Below are positions 1,589-61,507 of a stretch of 64,000 nucleotides of DNA, piece by piece. The position numbers were made by a program, and so were the translations under genes. The stretch lies in contig CANQJT010000001.1 in NCBI GenBank assembly GCA_947624325.1, positions 124,001 through 188,000 of the forward strand. Reading direction: 5' to 3'. The notes beneath the pieces were generated by a model. It had not been told where the DNA came from. It searched no databases and was given only the letters and a program-made list of their open reading frames with translations. Source of the stretch: Candidatus Gastranaerophilales bacterium. GTDB lineage: Bacteria > Cyanobacteriota > Vampirovibrionia > Gastranaerophilales > Gastranaerophilaceae. Every line of letters begins with the position of its first letter. Positions within the stretch are counted from its first letter, which is position 1.

Positions 1589-2515
1589 ATGACTAAGTTT
1601 AGTAAAATACTTATTTTATCTGTTTTGGCTTTAATATTGGTAATTGGTGCTTTTTTCTTATTTGATCACTTTGTTTATATATCAAATTTTAAGAAATCTG
1701 ATTTTTGCCAAACTACTGAATATTGTAGAAAAAAATATGCGTGGTCTAATCCTTATGTTTATGGTTCTTTCTTCTATAACTATGGAAAAAAAGATGATAA
1801 TGACATTAAAGCCGAAAATTCTATATTATTATTGGGTGGTGCGGCTGCTAATACTACTGTTAATGCTTCCGGGGCATCTTTTGCAAAATTATACTCAAAA
1901 TATACTCACAGGCATGTAATTGATCGTTCTTTGGCAGGCGGCTGCGTTTCTAATGCTTATTTTTTAAGCACAAACGAAGAATTTTATAATACTATGCGCC
2001 CTGTTAATGAAGTTATATACATTTTAGAAAATCAAGATGCTGAAATTTTATATTCGCCCACTGCCAGATTGATTCCGGGTGAAGCTTTTAATCTTCATTA
2101 TTATGTTAAGAATAATCAAATAAAAATGAGTAATTATAATAATTACTTACTGAATTTCATCAGATCATTATATACATCTAAATTATTAGCAGATAATTAT
2201 GTTAAAAATTACATAACTAACTATTCTCATGTAGATAAAATTACAAATGATCAAGTCTTATTCTTAAAAGAAGCAAAAAAGAATATGGAAGAACATTGGA
2301 ATAATAAAATTAAATTTACTGTTTTAATCTATGGCCCAATTTTGTACCAAGATGAATTAACGGAAAAATTAATTGATGAAGGATTTAATGTAATAGATAT
2401 GGATTCCCTTACAGATGAAGAAATACATTCTTCAAAATATATGCAGTACGGTGTTCCTAACGAACAACTTTGGAATTTACTAATTCCTTTAATTGCTAGT
2501 GAAATTAGTAAATAA
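1589..2515 (+). CDS. SGNH-hydrolase paralogue 1, catalytically degenerate
   Basis: First of four tandem paralogues, 308 aa, with one N-terminal membrane segment (about residues 7-27) and a predicted extracytoplasmic domain. It aligns along its length with the next three proteins. Where they have the nucleophile block GCSFAYG or GCSYAYG, it reads GGAAANT, so the serine is alanine. Where they end in an Asp/His-Pro motif (for example DNHPTEAAW), it reads YGVPNEQLW, without the His. It keeps the strand after block I (HVIDRSLAGG) and the WxNPxVY region. I infer a pseudoenzyme or binding subunit. The start follows a good TAGGAGG site, the strongest in this array. Confidence 0.8.
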   Translation: MTKFSKILILSVLALILVIGAFFLFDHFVYISNFKKSDFCQTTEYCRKKYAWSNPYVYGSFFYNYGKKDDNDIKAENSILLLGGAAANTTVNASGASFAKLYSKYTHRHVIDRSLAGGCVSNAYFLSTNEEFYNTMRPVNEVIYILENQDAEILYSPTARLIPGEAFNLHYYVKNNQIKMSNYNNYLLNFIRSLYTSKLLADNYVKNYITNYSHVDKITNDQVLFLKEAKKNMEEHWNNKIKFTVLIYGPILYQDELTEKLIDEGFNVIDMDSLTDEEIHSSKYMQYGVPNEQLWNLLIPLIASEISK

Positions 2516-2541
2516 ATATTACTTCCGGGAAATCAACAAAC

Positions 2542-3465
2542 ATGCGAAAAAATAAAATATTAATAATCATAATTAATATTGTAGTTTTTATAAGTTTGTT
2601 TTTTGTAATAGATGATTTAATATATAGGTTTTTTAATAATGTAACATATAAATATCTGAAATCGGAAAAAGAATATTTATGGAAAAATCCTCCGGTATAT
2701 TTTCTTGATTATAATTTAGCAGGAAGACAAGTTAAGAATCCTGAAAATATAAATATTAAATATAAGAATAATCCTATTGTATTGTTTGGCTGTTCTTTTG
2801 CTTACGGTCAAAATTTAGATGATAATCAGACATTTGGATATAAACTGTCTGCCGGTTTAAAAAGACCTGTTATTAACAGAGCTATTAAAGCCGGCAGTTT
2901 ACAGCATATGTATTATCAATCTACTTTAGAACAATTTTATAAAGATATTCCTTTTTCCGATAATGTTGTTTATATAATGATTGACGATCAGACTCGCAGA
3001 ACTTTCATATATTCTTTTTATATTAATATAAAGTCATTTTATTTACATTATTCTGTTAAAAATAATGAATTAATTATGGATAATTATTCTAATCCTATAT
3101 TAAATTTTTTAAAATCATTATATATAGTAAAAGTATTTAATCATTTTTATGTAAATCTGTTCATAAAAAATGTTTTTACTGCAGATAAGCTTACTGATAT
3201 TGAACTGTTATACTTTATAAAAACAAGAGAAAATCTTGAAAAACATTGGAAAACAAAAGTCAAATTTACTGTGATAATTTATAATTGGATTCCGTGGGAA
3301 AGTATATTAGTTAAAAAATTAAAGAAAAATGGTTTTAATGTTATTGTATTCAGAGATTTAAAGAATATTGATATTAAATCCAATGAATATATGTCTGAAG
3401 ATTTTCATCCTAAAGAAGCAGCTTGGAATGTTTATGTGGATTTATGTAAGGATTTAATAAAATGA
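2542..3465 (+). CDS. membrane-anchored SGNH/GDSL-type hydrolase, paralogue 2
   Basis: 307 aa with an N-terminal transmembrane anchor (about residues 5-24) and a periplasm-facing domain. SGNH-like blocks are visible: I, VLFGCSFAYG with Ser85; II, glycine in AGSLQHM; III, YIMIDDQ; V, EDFHPKEAAW. Families with this layout (single anchor plus SGNH domain) often add or remove acetyl groups on polysaccharides, but the substrate here is unknown. It begins 26 nt after paralogue 1 without a clear ribosome-binding site and overlaps paralogue 3 by 4 nt, which implies co-transcription. Confidence 0.75.
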   Translation: MRKNKILIIIINIVVFISLFFVIDDLIYRFFNNVTYKYLKSEKEYLWKNPPVYFLDYNLAGRQVKNPENINIKYKNNPIVLFGCSFAYGQNLDDNQTFGYKLSAGLKRPVINRAIKAGSLQHMYYQSTLEQFYKDIPFSDNVVYIMIDDQTRRTFIYSFYINIKSFYLHYSVKNNELIMDNYSNPILNFLKSLYIVKVFNHFYVNLFIKNVFTADKLTDIELLYFIKTRENLEKHWKTKVKFTVIIYNWIPWESILVKKLKKNGFNVIVFRDLKNIDIKSNEYMSEDFHPKEAAWNVYVDLCKDLIK

Positions 3466-4427
3466 AAAAAATAATTATTTGTATAATTTTAAATATATGT
3501 ATTTTTTTATTTTTATTTTTTTATTTGGATAATTTAGTTTATAAGACTCAAAATAAAATATATGATTGGAAAACAAATAAACATTATGAATTTTTTAATC
3601 CGGATGTTTTTGAATTGAATTATAATTCATACGGAAGAGAAATATCTAAGTACGAGTTAAATTTGTATTACCCCCCCCCATCTGCGAAGTTTAATATAAA
3701 AGTAAAAGAAACGGATAATTATAAAATAAGTCCTATAATATTATTCGGCTGTTCTTTTGCATATGGTGTAAATTTATTTTATCAGCAAACTTTCGGATAT
3801 AAATTATCTTGTTTATTAAACAGAAAAGTTATAAACAGAGCTATAGGTGCAGGCAGTTTACAACATATGTATTATCAAACATCTCTGGATACATTTTATA
3901 AAAAAATACCAAAAACAAATAATGTTATTTATATTTTTATCAATGATCAGGTTAGAAGACCTTTAGTATATACCTTCCATCCAAATTCAGGGTTCTTTTA
4001 TCTTCATTATTCTCTAAAAAATAATGAATTAATTATGGATAATTATAAAAATCCGTTTGTTAATTTCTTAAAATCATTATATATTGTTAAATTGTTTCAT
4101 CATAAATATGTTTATTTTTTTATAAATGATAAGAAAAATACAGAATTTTTAACCGATCTTTTGGTTTTGTATTTTATAAAAATCAGAGAAAATCTTGAAA
4201 CACATTGGCAAACTAAAATAAATTTTAATGTTGTTATATATGATAATTTTAAATATAAAGACATTTTAATAAATAAATTAAAAAAAGAAAAATTTAATGT
4301 TATAGATGTTGCTGAACTTTCTGATAAATTGATGTTTGACGAAAAATATTTTAAAGATAACCATCCGACAGAAGCTGCCTGGGATTTATTAACTCCGTTA
4401 ATAGCGAAGAAACTGCTGTTGGACTAA
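3462..4427 (+). CDS. membrane-anchored SGNH/GDSL-type hydrolase, paralogue 3 with C8 tract
   Basis: 321 aa, with an N-terminal anchor (about residues 3-22) and the same blocks as its neighbour: ILFGCSFAYG (Ser98), AGSLQHM, YIFINDQ and KDNHPTEAAW. It overlaps paralogue 2 by an ATGA junction. Compared with its paralogues it has an insertion before the catalytic block, and this insertion contains a run of eight C (3671-3678) encoding YYPPPS. The frame is open as sequenced, but loss or gain of one C would truncate the protein before the catalytic serine, so it is a candidate contingency gene. Enzymatic substrate unknown. Confidence 0.75.
   Translation: MKKIIICIILNICIFLFLFFYLDNLVYKTQNKIYDWKTNKHYEFFNPDVFELNYNSYGREISKYELNLYYPPPSAKFNIKVKETDNYKISPIILFGCSFAYGVNLFYQQTFGYKLSCLLNRKVINRAIGAGSLQHMYYQTSLDTFYKKIPKTNNVIYIFINDQVRRPLVYTFHPNSGFFYLHYSLKNNELIMDNYKNPFVNFLKSLYIVKLFHHKYVYFFINDKKNTEFLTDLLVLYFIKIRENLETHWQTKINFNVVIYDNFKYKDILINKLKKEKFNVIDVAELSDKLMFDEKYFKDNHPTEAAWDLLTPLIAKKLLLD
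3671..3678 (+). repeat. C8 mononucleotide tract inside SGNH paralogue 3
   Basis: Eight consecutive C in a coding region that is otherwise AT-rich. The tract lies upstream of the catalytic Ser98 codon. Slippage by one base would switch the gene off. Confidence 0.9.
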
Positions 4428-4458
4428 TAATTTAGAATATAAAATATTTTATTTGAAA

Positions 4459-4480
4459 TTTACTATTTGTATATAGTAAA
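4459..4480. promoter_or_regulatory. 8-bp inverted repeat between SGNH paralogues 3 and 4
   Basis: TTTACTAT and ATAGTAAA flank a 6-nt centre. The dyad lies 32 nt before the start of paralogue 4 and inside the only sizeable gap (84 nt) of the array. It could be an operator or a weak attenuator; AT-rich chance is also possible. Confidence 0.3.
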
Positions 4481-4511
4481 ATAAGTATAAATAAAAAATT
4501 AAATTAGAAGT

Positions 4512-5444
4512 ATGGATAAATTAAAAGACATATTTACGATATTTGCAGTCAATTTTTGTATAATTATATTAATTTTATTTGTATTTGATTTTTTTGTATA
4601 TAGAAATTTAATTGATGAAAATACACTTAAAATCCAAGATTCAAATAATTCTTTTAAATATATGGTTTTTAATCCCAAAGTTTATTCATTAGACATCAAT
4701 AAATTCGGCAGAATTTCAACTGATAATAAATATATAAACGATGCAAAACCAATAATATTGATGGGCTGTTCTTATGCATACGGTATGAATTTAGAGAACG
4801 GACAAACATTTGAATATAAAATATCAGAATTATTAAAAAGAAATGTAATAAATAAAGCCATATTGGCAGGTGGAATTCAGCATATGTATTATTTGTCCTC
4901 AAATGAAGATTTTTATAAAAAAACAAAAAAATCTAATGATATTATATACATTTTAATAGAGGATCAATACAGAAGAATTCTGGTTTATACTTTTTTTAAA
5001 TTCCATAATATATTTTATTTGCATTACACAAAAAAAAATAATGAATTAATTATGGATAATTATAAAAATCCGTTTATTAATTTATTTAAGTCCTTATATA
5101 TATCAAAACTAATGAATCATATATGGGTATATAAATACATAAATAATGAAAAAAATGCTGATAAACTGACTGATTTAGAACTTTTATATTTTGAAAAAAT
5201 AAAAAATAATCTTGAAAAGCATTGGGGGGGGGTAAATTTCAATATTATTATATACGGTAATTATAAGTATTCTGATATGATAGCTAAAAAGCTAAAAAAT
5301 AAAGGGTTTAATGTAATCAAATGCCAAGATTTGACAAATGAAGACATTATGCAGGGTAAGTATATATCTGATGATAACCATCCGACAGAAGCAGCTTGGG
5401 ATTTATTAACTCCATTGATAGCTAAAAAGCTTGTATTAAACTAG
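4512..5444 (+). CDS. membrane-anchored SGNH/GDSL-type hydrolase, paralogue 4 with G8 tract
   Basis: 310 aa, with an N-terminal anchor (about residues 9-29), then ILMGCSYAYG (Ser87), AGGIQHM, YILIEDQ and DDNHPTEAAW. The C-terminal 15 residues are almost identical to paralogue 3, pointing to recent duplication or gene conversion. A run of eight G (5224-5231) encodes part of HWGGVNF, where the paralogues have HW-x-TK-x-x-F and are one residue longer. A slip here would remove the catalytic His. This copy is separated from paralogue 3 by 84 nt that may hold its own promoter. Confidence 0.75.
   Translation: MDKLKDIFTIFAVNFCIIILILFVFDFFVYRNLIDENTLKIQDSNNSFKYMVFNPKVYSLDINKFGRISTDNKYINDAKPIILMGCSYAYGMNLENGQTFEYKISELLKRNVINKAILAGGIQHMYYLSSNEDFYKKTKKSNDIIYILIEDQYRRILVYTFFKFHNIFYLHYTKKNNELIMDNYKNPFINLFKSLYISKLMNHIWVYKYINNEKNADKLTDLELLYFEKIKNNLEKHWGGVNFNIIIYGNYKYSDMIAKKLKNKGFNVIKCQDLTNEDIMQGKYISDDNHPTEAAWDLLTPLIAKKLVLN
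5224..5231 (+). repeat. G8 mononucleotide tract inside SGNH paralogue 4
   Basis: Eight consecutive G at a position where the paralogues have no G run. In-frame as sequenced. Indels would remove the C-terminal His-Pro block. Confidence 0.9.
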
Positions 5445-30229: not shown

Positions 30230-31205
30230 TTATAGCAATCTCGTTAAGTATGTTAATAATATTATTATAGTTTAATTCTGTTACAAGCCGATGTCGATAT
30301 TCACTTCCGCCTCTTATATATTTTATGTAGCAGGGATAAAATTTTCTAAAAAATTTAATTCCGTTTTCTTCGCCTCTAAATGCAATTTCCATATCTAAGT
30401 GTTTTTTCAGCATAGAAATTTTTTGATTTAAATCAGGTTCGGGAAGTAGAATACCGTCATTTAGGTATTTTTCAATTCTGCTTAGTAATGATAAGTCACC
30501 CATAGATGCTCTGCCTACGGAGATTCCGTCTGCTTTAGAAATTTCAAGACATTTTAAAGCAGTTTGGGGACTTGTAATATCTCCGTTGGCATAATAAGGA
30601 ATATCTATTTCCCCTCTTAATTTTGATAATTCAAGCCAATCGGCAGTGCCTGAATATAATTGGGAACGGGTTCTTGCGTGCACCATAACGGCAGATGCCC
30701 CTGCCTCCTGCATTGCTTGAGCGAATTCTATAAAATTTTTATCATCTTGACTCCATCCCAATCTGAATTTACAGGTAATCGGAATTTTCACTGCTTCCTT
30801 TACTGCTGTTACAATTTCGCTTGCAAGTTTTGGGTTTCGCATTAGAGAACAGCCATCTTGACCTTTAACAATTTTATTTATCGGGCATCCCATGTTTATA
30901 TCTATTATTGATGCTCTATTTTCAAGAATTTTTGCTGCTTTTGCCATTAACTCGGGCTTATGACCTTCTATCTGAAAGGAAACAGGGCTTTCAGATTTGT
31001 CTGTCATAATAATATTGCAGTCGTTGTTTTGTACAAGAGCCTCGGAAGATATCATTTCTGTCATCAGCAGTGTTGTTTTTGATTCTTCTCTTATTAGTTT
31101 TCTTAAAACATAATCTGTAATTCCGGCGAGCGGTGCAAGTGCAGTAATGCTGTTTATTGTTATATTGCCTATTTTTATTTTATTATGGGCTTTTATTTCC
31201 TGCAT
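30213..31205 (-). CDS. dusB: tRNA-dihydrouridine synthase (DusB-like)
   Basis: 330 aa, normal length. FMN-dependent TIM barrel reducing uridines in the tRNA D-loop. Visible motifs are APLAGITDYVLRKL at the N-terminus, NMGCPINKIVKGQDGCSLM with the catalytic Cys, ITCKFRLGW, MVHARTR, and the FMN-phosphate loop ANGDITSP with GISVGRASMGD. It starts directly at the stop of the upstream TPR gene, so the two are probably co-transcribed, as dus genes often are with unrelated neighbours. Confidence 0.93.
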   Translation of the reverse strand: MQEIKAHNKIKIGNITINSITALAPLAGITDYVLRKLIREESKTTLLMTEMISSEALVQNNDCNIIMTDKSESPVSFQIEGHKPELMAKAAKILENRASIIDINMGCPINKIVKGQDGCSLMRNPKLASEIVTAVKEAVKIPITCKFRLGWSQDDKNFIEFAQAMQEAGASAVMVHARTRSQLYSGTADWLELSKLRGEIDIPYYANGDITSPQTALKCLEISKADGISVGRASMGDLSLLSRIEKYLNDGILLPEPDLNQKISMLKKHLDMEIAFRGEENGIKFFRKFYPCYIKYIRGGSEYRHRLVTELNYNNIINILNEIAINARQE

Positions 31206-53849: not shown

Positions 53850-53872
53850 AAAAGCCCCTGTCAGGGGCTTTT
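53850..53872 (-). terminator. intrinsic terminator of the 496-aa acidic protein gene
   Basis: 10-bp stem aaaagcccct/aggggctttt with a 3-nt loop and a T run on the minus strand, a few bases after the stop codon; it isolates nifJ from the gene upstream. Confidence 0.9.
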
Positions 53873-53875
53873 ATT

Positions 53876-55366
53876 TTATAACTCTATTTTGTTTTGCATT
53901 TCAATGATATTATTTCCGGGTATTATATATTCATCAGAACCGGGTTTTATTGTGCTTGGAGCTTCCTTTTTTGGTGCTATACCCGAAGGGTTAAATTCTA
54001 CCCAGCTACTTGGGTCATGTATATTTGCTTCATCATGATTATATAATATATCTAATGCTTTGTTTGAATTCCCGTTAAGCAGATATTCTAACGCAGAAAG
54101 ATTTCTGTCTGATCCCGGGAATACGTTATATTCTTTTTTATAATAATCTAAAATTGCTTTTTTATCACTGTCTGATAGAAGTTTATCTAATCTTACCAGT
54201 GTGTTTACATCTATATCTTTGCCGGAATCTGCAAGTAATTCGTTAAATAGCTTGCTGACTAATTCTTCCATACCGCCGTCTTCATCATTAACATAGTCAT
54301 ATGCCTGTAAAAATGAAGCTAATTCTTCATCTGAAAGTCCGTCCATAAACTCAAATATGGCATCATAAACATTTTCACCATCTTCAAGATTGTCTATAAC
54401 TGATTGATATTGTGCATAAACGGCTGCTTCCGTTTCGTTCAGATTATTTATTCTTTCCTGTTTTATTCTTTCGTTGGTTGAAGAGTTAATTCCGTCATCA
54501 TCATTATTATTTTCTTCTTCTTTAGGAGCTAAGAAAATTTCGGGATCTAATACTTCCCAAGTACTGGGAGATGATGATATTCCGCTTATTTCACCATTTA
54601 TACTGCCGTCATCATGATTAAATAATATATCTTTTGCTTTATTTGAATTTCCGTTAATCAGATATTCCAGAGCGGATAGGTTTCTGTCTAATACCGGCGA
54701 ATGTTCATTTTGTTTTTCGTAATAATCTAAAATTGATTGTTTATCATTATCTGATAAGAGCTTATCTAATCTTGATAATGTATTCATATCTATATCTTTA
54801 CATTCATCAACAATACATTCGTTAAACAGCTTGCTGATTAATGCTTCCATGCCGCCGTCCCCATCATTAACGTAGTCATATGCCTGTAAGAAGGAAGCTA
54901 ATTCTTCATCTGAAAGCCCGTCCATAAACTCAAATATAGCATCGTTGACATTTTCGCCATCTTCAAGATTATCTATAACTGATTGATATTGAGCATAAAC
55001 TGCAGCTTCCGTTCCATCAAGATTGTTTATTCTTTCCTGTCTTTGTCTTTCATTTGTAGTGCTGTTTATTCCGCCGTCATCTTCATTTGCTTCGTTATCG
55101 TCAATTGTACCCATTAATTTGTTATAAAAGTCGTCTAGGTCACCTTCTATTAAGTTTGGTCTTTCAAATATGAGCGGTAAAGTATGTGGCTCTTCTATAA
55201 TTTTAGGGGATAAAGTAATATTATCCGAGTTAAGATTATCAGCCCCGTTGCCTTCAAAAAATTCAATTAATTTTTCATCATTTATTTTTTCTTTATCCGT
55301 AAAGTCTTTTTTATCCAAATTTAAATTTTTTAACTCAAAATTATTGTTAATTTTTCCGTCTGACAT
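53876..55366 (-). CDS. acidic two-repeat protein of unknown function, 496 aa
   Basis: The start at 55366 follows a clear AAAGGAG site; an upstream ATG at 55399 precedes that site. No signal peptide and no membrane segment. Two near-identical modules of about 190 residues (NERxxQERINNL ... NGNSNKAxDIL) contain EAAVYAQYQSVIDNLEDGEN, IFEFMDGLSDEELASFLQAY and DKLLSDxDKxxILDYY. Modules are joined by acidic linkers ending EEENNNDDDG. The same domain, more diverged, occurs twice in the next protein (55513-57243). I do not recognise it. A sigma-28-like promoter lies about 38 nt upstream. Confidence 0.8.
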   Translation of the reverse strand: MSDGKINNNFELKNLNLDKKDFTDKEKINDEKLIEFFEGNGADNLNSDNITLSPKIIEEPHTLPLIFERPNLIEGDLDDFYNKLMGTIDDNEANEDDGGINSTTNERQRQERINNLDGTEAAVYAQYQSVIDNLEDGENVNDAIFEFMDGLSDEELASFLQAYDYVNDGDGGMEALISKLFNECIVDECKDIDMNTLSRLDKLLSDNDKQSILDYYEKQNEHSPVLDRNLSALEYLINGNSNKAKDILFNHDDGSINGEISGISSSPSTWEVLDPEIFLAPKEEENNNDDDGINSSTNERIKQERINNLNETEAAVYAQYQSVIDNLEDGENVYDAIFEFMDGLSDEELASFLQAYDYVNDEDGGMEELVSKLFNELLADSGKDIDVNTLVRLDKLLSDSDKKAILDYYKKEYNVFPGSDRNLSALEYLLNGNSNKALDILYNHDEANIHDPSSWVEFNPSGIAPKKEAPSTIKPGSDEYIIPGNNIIEMQNKIEL

Positions 55367-55403
55367 ACAAAACTCCTTTACACATTCATATACATACATT
55401 TTT

Positions 55404-55431
55404 ATATCGGTATAAGTTATTATTTTCTTTA
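55404..55431 (-). promoter_or_regulatory. weaker sigma-28-like promoter of the 496-aa gene
   Basis: On the minus strand, a TAAAGAAA -35-like octamer (55424-55431), 12-bp spacer and ACCGATAT (55404-55411). The -10 box fits the FliA consensus GCCGATAA; the -35 half and spacing are imperfect. Confidence 0.45.
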
Positions 55432-55469
55432 GTTAAAATTTATTAAATTTTACAAATATTAACAATAAT

Positions 55470-55506
55470 TAAAAGGCAGACAATAAATTTCTGTCTGCCT
55501 TTTAAT
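55470..55506 (-). terminator. intrinsic terminator of the 576-aa acidic protein gene
   Basis: Stem aaaaggcagac/gtctgcctttt with a loop of about 10 nt, ending in a T run on the minus strand close to the stop codon at 55513. Confidence 0.88.
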
Positions 55507-55512
55507 TTAGTT

Positions 55513-57243
55513 TTAATGTATACCCGGTGATATAAAGTCAAAATAACCGTTTGTTATAAACATTGCACCTAGAGGTGCTCTTGTTCCTCTGTCATCTATA
55601 ACATGTGAGATATCATAGAACAAACTAACTTTAGTATTTAATTTGATTCTGGCTGAATTTACATCACCGCTTAGGATATATTCTAATGCTTCCTTCTGAA
55701 TTTTAAATACTTTTTTATATTCGTTTTGTTGAGATGTATTAATATATTTAGTTGGTACTCCGTCTTTATCTAAATAGTACATTGAATCCAGTTTTTCTTG
55801 TACAATTTCATCAAACTTTTTCATAACTGCTTCTTTTTGTTCTTGATTTAGCATTGAAGAGAGTCTGTTTAATAAATTCAAATCCAGATTATTTTTATTG
55901 TCTGAACCGCTTTTAATCATTGTTGAGAAAGCATCACACATTAAATCTGATATTCCGCCGACAGAAGATTTTGCTTTATCATAAGCTTGTAGAAATACTT
56001 TTAAATCTTCATCACTAAGTTCACTCATAAATTCAAATGTAGCTTGATTATCAATTGCTCTATTGTATGTACCGTCCATCTTTTCTTCAAGCATTTCTTT
56101 GTATCTGCCGTATATTTCAGATTCCGCATCATTTAAATTTTCTAAATTTTCGTTGTCAGGTGTATTTATTTTTTTATTCTGTTCATCTAAATACTCCTTA
56201 AACCTTGGGCTCACCGGCGGTAATTTATCAGATGGTATACTTTCATCTTTTGGTGTACTTTCCTCTTTTGGAGCTTCTTTACCTGCACTCACTGGAACCA
56301 TCCTGCCAAACCCATCGACTACTATTTGTGTCCAATGTTCTTCAATCCAATATCCATCCGGTCCGACAATGTGACCAATGTCAAATTCAAGAACATATTC
56401 TTTGTTAAGTATTTTCATTGCACCTTCAGTATCGCCGTCACCTAACAATAATTTAAATGCGTCAAGCTGTTTGTCAAATAATTGTCTATACTGATTTTGT
56501 TCTGTTTTATTTGGTACATCTGTTTTAGACCATTTATCGCCATTTTTGCGCATGTAAGTCATTTTACTGATGTTTTCATCCATTTTTTCATTGAGTTTGT
56601 CATATATGGCTTCTTTTTCTTCATCGGAAAGTAAATTTGATAATCTTGTAAATGCGGTTAAATCAACATCACCTTTTTTATTTAATAATGTTTGATACAT
56701 ATCACTTACAAGTTCTTCCATACCGCCGTCTTTATCATTCATGACATCATATGCAGACAAAAAATTCATAAGTTCATCATCGCTTAATTCACCGATGAAT
56801 TCATACATATCAAGCTTTTCATTTCCATCCAGTTCACTCAGTGCTTGTTCGTACTTTTCATAAACTTCTTTTTCTTCTTCTGATAAATTTATTTTTGCAT
56901 TTTCATCAACACTATTACCCGGTTCAATTTCTTCATCGGGATAAATGGGTATAGCATAAAGATCATCCGTATTATCCGGAATTATATTATCTTCTTCCGT
57001 ATCAATTCCGTCAGTATTAATAAATTCAATATCTGGTTTATTTATTAGAGGCAAAGTATTAATAATTGTTTTTTTCGGTTTGGGATTTAAAATTATATAT
57101 TGTTGATTTGCCGTATCGCCTGTTGTTTTCTTCTTTAAAAATATTGATTCATCATCATTTTGTTTTAGTTTGAAAGATTCAGAATCAAGATTTTTTAAAT
57201 CCTTCGGATTTAAATTTAACTCATTTGTTTTCTTAATAAACAT
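55513..57243 (-). CDS. acidic repeat protein of unknown function, 576 aa
   Basis: No signal peptide or membrane segment. After a hydrophilic N-terminus (LNLNPKDLKNLDSESFKL) and an acidic linker come two modules of about 180 residues related to the 496-aa neighbour. In the first: EKYEQALSELDGNEKLDMYE, FIGELSDDELMNFLSAYD and RLSNLLSDEEKEAIYDKL. In the second: FEFMSELSDEDLKVFLQAYD and LSSMLNQEQKEAVMKKFDE. Each module ends in a beta-like DIGHIVG/DISHVID segment. A Ser/Pro/Lys-rich spacer (KEESTPKDESIPSD) separates them. Own AAGGAGT site, sigma-28-type promoter and terminator. Function unknown. Confidence 0.8.
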   Translation of the reverse strand: MFIKKTNELNLNPKDLKNLDSESFKLKQNDDESIFLKKKTTGDTANQQYIILNPKPKKTIINTLPLINKPDIEFINTDGIDTEEDNIIPDNTDDLYAIPIYPDEEIEPGNSVDENAKINLSEEEKEVYEKYEQALSELDGNEKLDMYEFIGELSDDELMNFLSAYDVMNDKDGGMEELVSDMYQTLLNKKGDVDLTAFTRLSNLLSDEEKEAIYDKLNEKMDENISKMTYMRKNGDKWSKTDVPNKTEQNQYRQLFDKQLDAFKLLLGDGDTEGAMKILNKEYVLEFDIGHIVGPDGYWIEEHWTQIVVDGFGRMVPVSAGKEAPKEESTPKDESIPSDKLPPVSPRFKEYLDEQNKKINTPDNENLENLNDAESEIYGRYKEMLEEKMDGTYNRAIDNQATFEFMSELSDEDLKVFLQAYDKAKSSVGGISDLMCDAFSTMIKSGSDNKNNLDLNLLNRLSSMLNQEQKEAVMKKFDEIVQEKLDSMYYLDKDGVPTKYINTSQQNEYKKVFKIQKEALEYILSGDVNSARIKLNTKVSLFYDISHVIDDRGTRAPLGAMFITNGYFDFISPGIH

Positions 57244-57305
57244 ACAACACTCCTTAACTTTTCTACCATTTTTTATGAAAATACAATAGTAAATTCATAT
57301 ATGAA

Positions 57306-57332
57306 GTATCGGTATGTTTTTTTTAAACTTTA
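57306..57332 (-). promoter_or_regulatory. sigma-28 (FliA/SigD)-type promoter of the 576-aa gene
   Basis: On the minus strand, TAAAGTTT (57325-57332), exactly 11 bp, then ACCGATAC (57306-57313). Seven of the eight bases of the -35 box or more match the consensus TAAAGTTT-N11-GCCGATAA. It gives a leader of about 55 nt. Confidence 0.75.
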
Positions 57333-57392
57333 ACTTTAAACTTGTTTTTATATAATATTGTAAAAAATATTTACAAAGAATAAAAAACGATA

Positions 57393-57425
57393 AAAAAGAA
57401 ACTGAATAATTCAGTTTCTTTTTTA
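57393..57425 (-). terminator. intrinsic terminator of the 275-aa acidic protein gene
   Basis: 15-bp near-perfect stem aaaaaagaaactgaa/ttcagtttctttttt with a 3-nt loop, just after the stop codon at 57446 on the minus strand. Confidence 0.88.
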
Positions 57426-57445
57426 ATTCATTCAAATATGATATT

Positions 57446-58273
57446 TTATAATTCCGGATTTGGATTTATTTTTATTGGTTCCGGTGGTACAGGTGTTTCT
57501 TGGGTAGGACCTGTTGAACCTATAGTCGGTGCATTCGGTTTATAAGGCTCAGGTGTTATTGTTATTGTAATGGAGGTAGGTTCTGTTGGTTCTTGTGTCT
57601 CCGGTTCATTTGTAACACTCGGCTCGTGGAATTCAGGTTCTGTTGGTTCATTTGAAACACTTGGTTCTTCAGTCCCCGGTTCTATTATTACATCAGGGCC
57701 TACAGGTTCAGTCTTGTTTGTGAAATCAGGTAATAATTTTGTAATTTCATCAGGTAGATATTCTTCTAAAGCACCTATTATTTCTTTTACACCATCAGGT
57801 AAATTTTCAAAAAAGTCTTTCGGTAATTCATTTATAATATCGGGAAGCCTATCCATTAGCCATTCGGGAATTTGTTTCGCTATATCAGCAGCTTGATTAC
57901 ATATGTTTTGCAAAGTTTCCTCGTCAAATTCAGGCAGATTATCAATAAAATTCGTTACTATATCTGCTATATTTTCATCGGGAAGATTTTTTATAAAGTC
58001 AGGGATATTAATTGTAATATCCTTTGGTAAATTTTCATTATCATCTTTTGGTTTTATGAAATCAATAATTTTTTGAATAATATCAGGTTTTTGCTGAATA
58101 TCATATAAATTCCCCGGAGCCATGTTATCTAATATATTTTCAAATTCAGGCTCAGAATTATCATTTATTTCAAAAATAGATACTTCTTTTTCTTTCTGAA
58201 TTTCATCATCAAGTTTTTTTAAATCTACTTGGTTAAATTTTACATCGCCCGTTTTGTTAATGTTATTGAACAT
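57446..58273 (-). CDS. acidic protein with LPD-rich helices and Pro/Glu/Thr tail, 275 aa
   Basis: No signal peptide. The N-terminus (KFNQVDLKKLDDE) resembles those of the other two cluster proteins. Residues 85-190 repeat short helices punctuated by LP or LPD (IPDFIKNLPDENIADIV, FIDNLPEFDEETL, RLPDIINELPKDFFENLP). Residues 190-275 form a low-complexity Pro/Glu/Thr tail (EPTEPEFHEPSVTNEPETQ). The domain of the two larger proteins is absent. It has its own AGGAGT site, the best sigma-28-like promoter of the three and its own terminator. Function unknown; the tail could be a spacer or surface-exposed stalk. Confidence 0.78.
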   Translation of the reverse strand: MFNNINKTGDVKFNQVDLKKLDDEIQKEKEVSIFEINDNSEPEFENILDNMAPGNLYDIQQKPDIIQKIIDFIKPKDDNENLPKDITINIPDFIKNLPDENIADIVTNFIDNLPEFDEETLQNICNQAADIAKQIPEWLMDRLPDIINELPKDFFENLPDGVKEIIGALEEYLPDEITKLLPDFTNKTEPVGPDVIIEPGTEEPSVSNEPTEPEFHEPSVTNEPETQEPTEPTSITITITPEPYKPNAPTIGSTGPTQETPVPPEPIKINPNPEL

Positions 58274-58340
58274 TTAGTACTCCTATCTTAATATTACTAA
58301 CATGCTAAAAAAATATGTAAAACTAATTTACATATTTTTT

Positions 58341-58367
58341 ATATCGGCAATATTTTTATTAACTTTA
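58341..58367 (-). promoter_or_regulatory. sigma-28 (FliA/SigD)-type promoter of the 275-aa gene
   Basis: On the minus strand, TAAAGTTA (58360-58367), exactly 11 bp, then GCCGATAT (58341-58348). Each box differs from the FliA consensus only at its last base. It gives a leader of about 60 nt. Confidence 0.8.
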
Positions 58368-61170: not shown

Positions 61171-61246
61171 GCCACAATAGCTCAGTTGGTAGAGCAAGGG
61201 ACTGAAAATCCCTGTGTCCTTGGTTCGATTCCGAGTTGTGGCACCA
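61171..61246 (+). tRNA. tRNA-Phe(GAA)
   Basis: Complete cloverleaf: acceptor gccacaa/ttgtggc, D stem gctc/gagc, anticodon stem aggga/tccct with loop ctgaaaa (anticodon GAA), T arm cttgg/ccgag around ttcgatt, A73 and an encoded CCA. Its last 14 bases are repeated downstream twice in 127-bp units. Confidence 0.97.
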
Positions 61247-61507
61247 TTTTTTTTGACTGTGTAATTTTAAGTCTCGGAATCTCACAGGTTGTTTTCATTG
61301 AAAACAACGGTTCTTCCCTCTCCTCAAAAGATGCACCGTATCTTTTTCGTCGGCAGAGTGAGTTGTGGCACCATTTTTTTTGACTATGTAATTTTAAGTT
61401 TCGGAATCTCACAGGTTGTTTTCTTTGAAAACAACGGTTCTTCCCTCTCCTCAAAAGATACACCGTATCTTTTTCGTCGGCAGAGTGAGTTGTGGCACCA
61501 TTTTTTT
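61233..61507 (+). repeat. 127-bp tandem repeats starting in the tRNA-Phe 3' end
   Basis: Two full units (61233-61359 and 61360-61486) and the start of a third (from 61487). Each begins with GAGTTGTGGCACCA, the last 14 bases of tRNA-Phe, followed by a T run. The full units differ at about four positions. Each contains a 9-bp hairpin (GTTGTTTTC/GAAAACAAC, 61288-61308 in unit 1) and a second, AAAAGATA/TATCTTTT (61453-61473 in unit 2). Repeated tRNA 3' ends are typical of attachment sites of integrative elements. Confidence 0.85.

Follow-up and report, generated by a model that had tools for sequence, protein, structure and literature searches.

The subject of this analysis is a set of three adjacent genes on the minus strand of a 64,000-nucleotide (nt) stretch of DNA, called here the window (C1:124001-188000), in a Candidatus Gastranaerophilales genome of 1.98 Mb that is 98.9% complete. 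Its assignment to this order of gut Melainabacteria/Vampirovibrionia, relatives of the cyanobacteria, agrees with the orthologues found for one of the regulon genes. Each gene is preceded by a sequence of the kind read by sigma-28 factors, and the three probably belong to a large regulon that serves a second, filament-less secretion system of flagellar type. Genes 1 and 2 are paralogues, each with two copies of one helical domain, whereas gene 3 is unlike both in sequence (Table 1). The N-termini of all three proteins are polar and contain neither a hydrophobic stretch nor a signal peptide. Because a terminator-like hairpin, recognised by inspection, lies behind each of them, the genes appear to be separate transcription units; gene 3, for instance, looks monocistronic given the repeat at 57396-57422. 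In gene 1, translation likely starts at the ATG at 55366 rather than at 55399, since the latter is only 5 nt past the -10 box.

Table 1. Promoters, genes, repeat domains and terminator-like repeats of the three-gene region (positions in the window; aa, amino acids; pLDDT, predicted local distance difference test)
Feature	Position	Strand	Description
Sigma-28-type promoter, gene 3	58341-58367	minus	TAAAGTTA-N11-GCCGATAT, 68 nt ahead of ATG; 25.1 bits, highest in window
Gene 3	57446-58273	minus	275 aa; polar N-terminus, acidic helical part, Pro/Thr/Glu-rich tail
Terminator-like inverted repeat and T-run after gene 3	57396-57422	minus	Read by eye, not scored by a program
Sigma-28-type promoter, gene 2	57306-57332	minus	TAAAGTTT-N11-ACCGATAC, 63 nt ahead of ATG; 19.0 bits
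Gene 2	55513-57243	minus	576 aa; two helical repeat domains, no signal peptide
Repeat domain, first copy, gene 2	56344-56907	minus	
Repeat domain, second copy, gene 2	55564-56163	minus	
Terminator-like inverted repeat GGCAGAC...GTCTGCC after gene 2	55471-55504	minus	Read by eye, not scored by a program
Sigma-28-type promoter, gene 1	55404-55431	minus	TAAAGAAA-N12-ACCGATAT; 14.2 bits
Gene 1	53876-55366	minus	496 aa from ATG at 55366; two copies of the repeat domain of gene 2
Repeat domain, first copy, gene 1	54581-55042	minus	AlphaFold2 mean pLDDT 89.6, all helical
Repeat domain, second copy, gene 1	53999-54445	minus	76% identical to first copy
Terminator-like inverted repeat AGCCCCTGACAGGGGCT and T-run after gene 1	53850-53872	minus	Read by eye, not scored by a program

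Comparisons across the order were made with 145 Gastranaerophilales genomes from 36 genera, among which the genome that holds the window is labelled G000. At the sensitivity used, a profile of the repeat domain found matches only in its own genome; a borderline match elsewhere in the order (E 9e-4) was ignored, as it contains an internal stop. The AlphaFold2 model of the gene 1 domain gave no significant Foldseek match in the PDB, and the gene 2 product had no relative in a scan of genome contigs. The gene 3 product has no signal peptide and no confident Pfam or NCBIfam match. Matches of gene 3 to FliH (E 0.12) and of gene 1 to KH and PDI-like families were far under the cut-offs and were discarded.

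A first-pass annotation had placed sigma-28 promoters ahead of the three genes, and all three sites are present at the positions in Table 1, on the minus strand. The 11-bp spacer that it described holds when counted to the octamer NCCGATAN, while the distance to CCGATA itself is 12. It had also presented the gene 1 site as weaker, with a 12-bp spacer. The -35 box is indeed weaker; a spacer of 12, however, is normal in this order, where it occurs in 21 of the 36 orthologous promoters that formed the training set of our weight matrix. Thus, the gene 1 promoter is weaker solely in its -35 box. In general, the window sites combine a TAAAGTTT-like -35 box, a spacer of 11 (12) and a GCCGATAA-like -10 box.

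The matrix was trained solely on those 36 promoters, which belong to another gene family and come from other genomes. Across the whole window, its first three ranks are the promoters of genes 3, 2 and 1, in that order, and the fourth-best score, 13.3 bits at 30776-30802, falls within a coding frame. In 60 random first-order Markov sequences with the composition of the window, the mean best score was 13.1 bits and the largest 21.5. Consequently, the gene 3 promoter stands on its own and that of gene 2 is well over average, while the gene 1 promoter, with a score close to the random mean, leans on its position.

The FliA/SigD reading of these sites had been staked on the presence of a fliA-type sigma factor in the genome, and one is encoded there: a single FliA/WhiG factor scores 245 bits against a curated cut-off of 189.6, so the claim survives. 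Other sigma-70-family factors were also found with HMMER. A genome-wide scan, which the first-pass annotation had called for, was run as a search for the pattern TAAAGN{14,16}CCGATA with the reversed pattern as a control. It returned 36 sites against 3, which makes the regulon genome-wide. By inspection, 23 of the 36 sites are directly upstream of a co-oriented open reading frame (ORF), most of them 24-39 nt before it, and the pattern also exceeds its control in nearly all sampled relatives of the order.

These counts bear on the possibility that AT-rich sequence mimics the consensus by chance, or that another sigma factor is at work. The gene 1 site taken alone, near the random mean best score, and the further sigma-70-family factors would be compatible with it. 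Nevertheless, the genome-wide excess, the position of the sites before gene starts, the retention of the motif ahead of orthologues of another regulon gene and the top three matrix ranks of the window sites make such a coincidence extremely unlikely. On this comparative evidence, the sigma-28 identity of the promoters is close to settled.

In addition to the three window genes, the regulon includes genes for an Mbeg1/lipase-like protein, EF-hand-like proteins with Pro/Thr-rich tails, a GAF/HD-GYP protein, two repeat-rich paralogues (L043 and L045) and a protein family named here MGLAASQ. Set against 139 further proteins of this genome, regulon proteins have no hydrophobic N-terminus, are acidic and poor in Cys, and are rich in Asn, Ser and Asp within their first 25 residues (p 6e-9 to 5e-5). 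These compositional features would be expected of type III substrates, although they are not proof of export. L043 and L045, about 4.8 kb apart on contig C3, carry beta-roll-like repeats of the GGxGxD type and have near-identical N-termini and similar promoters. The promoter of the HD-GYP gene is identical in five species of the genus, with 27 of 27 promoter columns invariant against 117 of 340 outside; it was dropped as specific evidence because the surrounding leader is also strongly conserved. For an 86-aa regulon protein (L074), the idea of a FlgM-like anti-sigma factor found no family support.

The MGLAASQ family offers the best view of a conserved target. Its profile was found in 145/145 genomes, in up to 20 copies: four in the genome under study and often 11-20 in other flagellin-negative genera. 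The proteins begin with MGxAASQAR and match no Pfam or NCBIfam family, including flagellin. A sigma-28 footprint lies upstream of diverged orthologues, in most cases 33-39 nt ahead of the ATG; its scores range from 11 to 16 of 16, with shuffled means near 10. Of 41 genes in a second sample, which overlaps the earlier orthologue set but spans the order, 26 scored at least 14 of 16, compared with 4 of 600 random stretches. The AlphaFold2 model (pLDDT 89, predicted template modelling score 0.55) has long N- and C-terminal helices that enclose a beta domain. When it was compared with known structures by VIA-align 2, the first 27 matches were all flagellar axial proteins, with Z from 9.2 to about 6, values that long helices inflate. 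On our reading, the MGLAASQ protein is likely to form part of the axis or surface of the second system described below.

A sigma-28 regulon would ordinarily point to a motility flagellum. No flagellin was found in the genome under study in a PF00669 search, nor in the sampled members of its genus, and only 48 of the 145 genomes of the order encode one. By contrast, FliA is present in 145/145 genomes and 36/36 genera. The first-pass annotation had remarked that no flagellar gene is nearby, which is true within the window; a flagellum-type export apparatus is nevertheless encoded on other contigs. By profile, it comprises FliF, FliE, FlgB, FlgC, two FlgF/G-like proteins, FliI, FliH, FlhA, FliO, FliP, FliQ, FliR, an SpoA protein and a lytic transglycosylase. 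A 330-aa gene in the position of FliG gave no clear match. The SpoA (C-ring) protein (L142:10478-11701), of about 400 aa, adjoins FliO and carries a FliN-like domain in its C-terminal half, a layout like that of SctQ. A separate 487-aa protein (L063:7496-8959, contig C7) corresponds to the C-terminal, substrate-docking domain of FlhA alone; since nearly all flagellin-negative genomes have at least two FHIPEP matches, such a protein seems to be kept across the order.

Two types of export gate can be told apart in the order. FliP (PF00813) is found in 144/145 genomes, and at least two copies occur in every flagellin-positive genome except G085 and G008 (46 of 48) but in none of the 97 flagellin-negative ones. 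The extra copy is long and higher-scoring, whereas a short FliP, with open frames mostly of 213-225 aa, is nearly universal. FlhA scores are similarly bimodal: values of 817-889 bits occur only in flagellin-positive genomes, and values of about 711-736 bits nearly everywhere. The genome under study lacks the canonical long, high-scoring FliP/FlhA pair and has only the second type, with an FlhA of 711 bits. This FlhA is under the curated cut-offs of both the FlhA and the SctV models, nearer to the former; FliP and FlhA are both closer in sequence to flagellar than to injectisome proteins. FliPs of the second type are 72-89% identical to one another and 37-39% identical to the flagellar FliP of the relative G127; the latter FliP clusters with flagellar FliPs of solved structure at a support of 1.0. 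Thus, the two types do not derive from a recent duplication. G127 encodes both systems: a cluster with FlgK-, FlgL-, FlgH- and FlgI-like genes on its contig C5, and an SpoA-FliO-FliP-FliQ-FliR operon on C1 (gene names partly by inspection). Only the latter type, in the same gene order, is found in the genome under study. One gene in the G127 flagellar cluster has the size of FlgM but gave no match to Pfam FlgM. A second, nearly universal flagellum-type type III apparatus, separate from the canonical flagellum found in relatives, is shown at the level of sequence on the basis of two gate genes in 145 genomes and of the gene order in four of them.

Several Gastranaerophilales have been reported to possess incomplete sets of flagellar genes, interpreted as reduction or loss (Di Rienzi et al. 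2013, PMC3787301; Soo et al. 2014, PMC4040986). Together with the lack of flagellin, this could suggest a relic regulon, in which FliA, the promoters and the basal-body genes are leftovers of a flagellum that is being lost. However, the gate genes that remain are not those of the flagellum; they belong to the second system, which also occurs in nearly all flagellated relatives. The distribution of FliA and FliP shows no pattern of decay, and the 36 promoter sites of this genome are among the highest counts of the sampled genomes, and many of these sites precede long intact reading frames. A relic is thus largely refuted and very unlikely.

The explanation that we favor is that the genome's own FliA/WhiG factor drives a large regulon to which the three window genes belong. 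The order would retain this factor with or without a flagellum because it also, or mainly, serves the second type III system. This system would consist of an MS ring, proximal-rod-type proteins, an SpoA C-ring protein, an ATPase complex and an FlhA/FliOPQR gate, with no flagellin, and sigma-28 would turn on its late, exported proteins. The exported set would have two parts: the conserved, multi-copy MGLAASQ protein, a coiled-coil protein resembling flagellin and hook-associated proteins (HAPs) and probably axial or surface-located, and a changing, species-specific cargo that would include the three window proteins. The earlier statement that sigma-28 drives flagellum-associated genes would then hold only in an altered sense, for a second system without filament in a genome without flagellin. 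We give this explanation as a whole a probability of about two in three. Its sequence-level foundation consists of the promoters and their sigma factor, the absence of flagellin, the near-universal apparatus and the conserved MGLAASQ promoter. By reasoning from these, the assignment of the window genes as cargo is probable; being species-specific, acidic and sigma-28-driven, with two of them paralogous, the window proteins fit a variable cargo. A wider proposal is evenly balanced: that the order has a second flagellum-derived organelle with its own flagellin-like family of up to 20 copies and a species-specific cargo under sigma-28, retained through repeated losses of the motility flagellum.

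Alternatively, the promoters may be true sigma-28 promoters whose products work within the cell or get to the surface in some other way, their co-regulation reflecting only shared timing. Sigma-28 factors elsewhere do control non-secreted proteins, and the regulon contains the intracellular-looking GAF/HD-GYP protein (L063) and a protein with a Sec signal peptide (L072). Nevertheless, most regulon products share substrate-like features, some have lipase-like or EF-hand-like segments, and the three window proteins lack a signal peptide; this alternative is therefore unlikely, though it deserves some weight.

Several observations weigh against the explanation by a second secretion system. Given the GAF/HD-GYP protein and the Sec-signal protein, export does not apply to every regulon target. 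Outside their own genome, no clear relatives of the window proteins were found, gene 3 not having been searched for separately; hence, footprinting is not possible for the window promoters themselves. In Foldseek, the MGLAASQ protein has a weak structural match, with a best E of 0.025. FlgE, MotA/B, the L/P rings and FlgM were not noticed in the stretches that were read, no genome-wide search having been made for them. Finally, although none of 11 flagellin genes of relatives (L081, L082, L083, L147) has a sigma-28 element close to it, three of the 11 carry a similar element 322-347 nt upstream, and FliA could act on flagellins too in flagellated relatives. Sigma-54 sites ahead of these flagellins are at background level. 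For the three flagellins concerned, the distance of 322-347 nt suggests long leaders.

If the nearly universal genes do form a separate secretion machine, published lists of flagellar genes would have to be divided between two systems, these bacteria would gain a testable way of acting on its surroundings, and FliA would no longer be a marker of motility. The promoter motif, in turn, offers a simple means to list candidate cargo in any Gastranaerophilales genome.

Two further features of the window were observed. Two tandem 127-nt repeats (61233-61359 and 61360-61486), 97% identical, come after a tRNA-Phe gene (61171-61246) and start inside the 3′ end of the tRNA gene; repeated integration or duplication of an att site could leave such an arrangement. 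At 1589-5444, what looks like a tandem array of paralogues comprises four neighbouring genes, each about 310 aa long and similar to the others in its membrane-anchored N-terminus.

With the FliA/SigD/sigma-28 regulons known from E. coli, the regulon described here shares a FliA/WhiG-family sigma factor over the cut-off and the TAAAGTTT-N11-GCCGATAA consensus. It differs from those of flagellated bacteria in that there is no flagellin, a spacer of 12 is as common as one of 11, and most targets are uncharacterised proteins that show export-like features. Some non-flagellar export proteins of Campylobacter jejuni are under sigma-28 control. Non-flagellar proteins of this species are thought to be exported via the flagellar export system (PMC5223770, PMC2764114); the exporter there is the motility flagellum, whereas the apparent exporter here is a second system that lacks a filament. 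In Lysobacter enzymogenes, flagellar type III secretion system (T3SS) homologues of a non-flagellated cell are tied to the control of twitching motility (PMC7277350). Flagellum-type export genes are likewise retained there without a flagellum, while the abstract of that paper does not mention a sigma-28 regulon or a flagellin-like family. The injectisome T3SS (SctRSTUV) has a comparable export gate, ATPase complex and SpoA ring and also no flagellin; in contrast to it, FliP and FlhA are here nearer to flagellar proteins, and rod-type FlgB/C/F/G are present. The MGLAASQ protein resembles the axial proteins flagellin, FlgL and FliD in its predicted long terminal helices and beta middle, its sigma-28 promoter and its multiple copies, and differs from them in lacking a flagellin Pfam or NCBIfam match and in its weak Foldseek score. 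No published description of a second type III system in Gastranaerophilales was found among the titles and abstracts judged, most subscription journals being outside the search. Two flhA genes were listed for ACD20 by Di Rienzi et al. (PMC3787301), which is in line with the presence of two systems.

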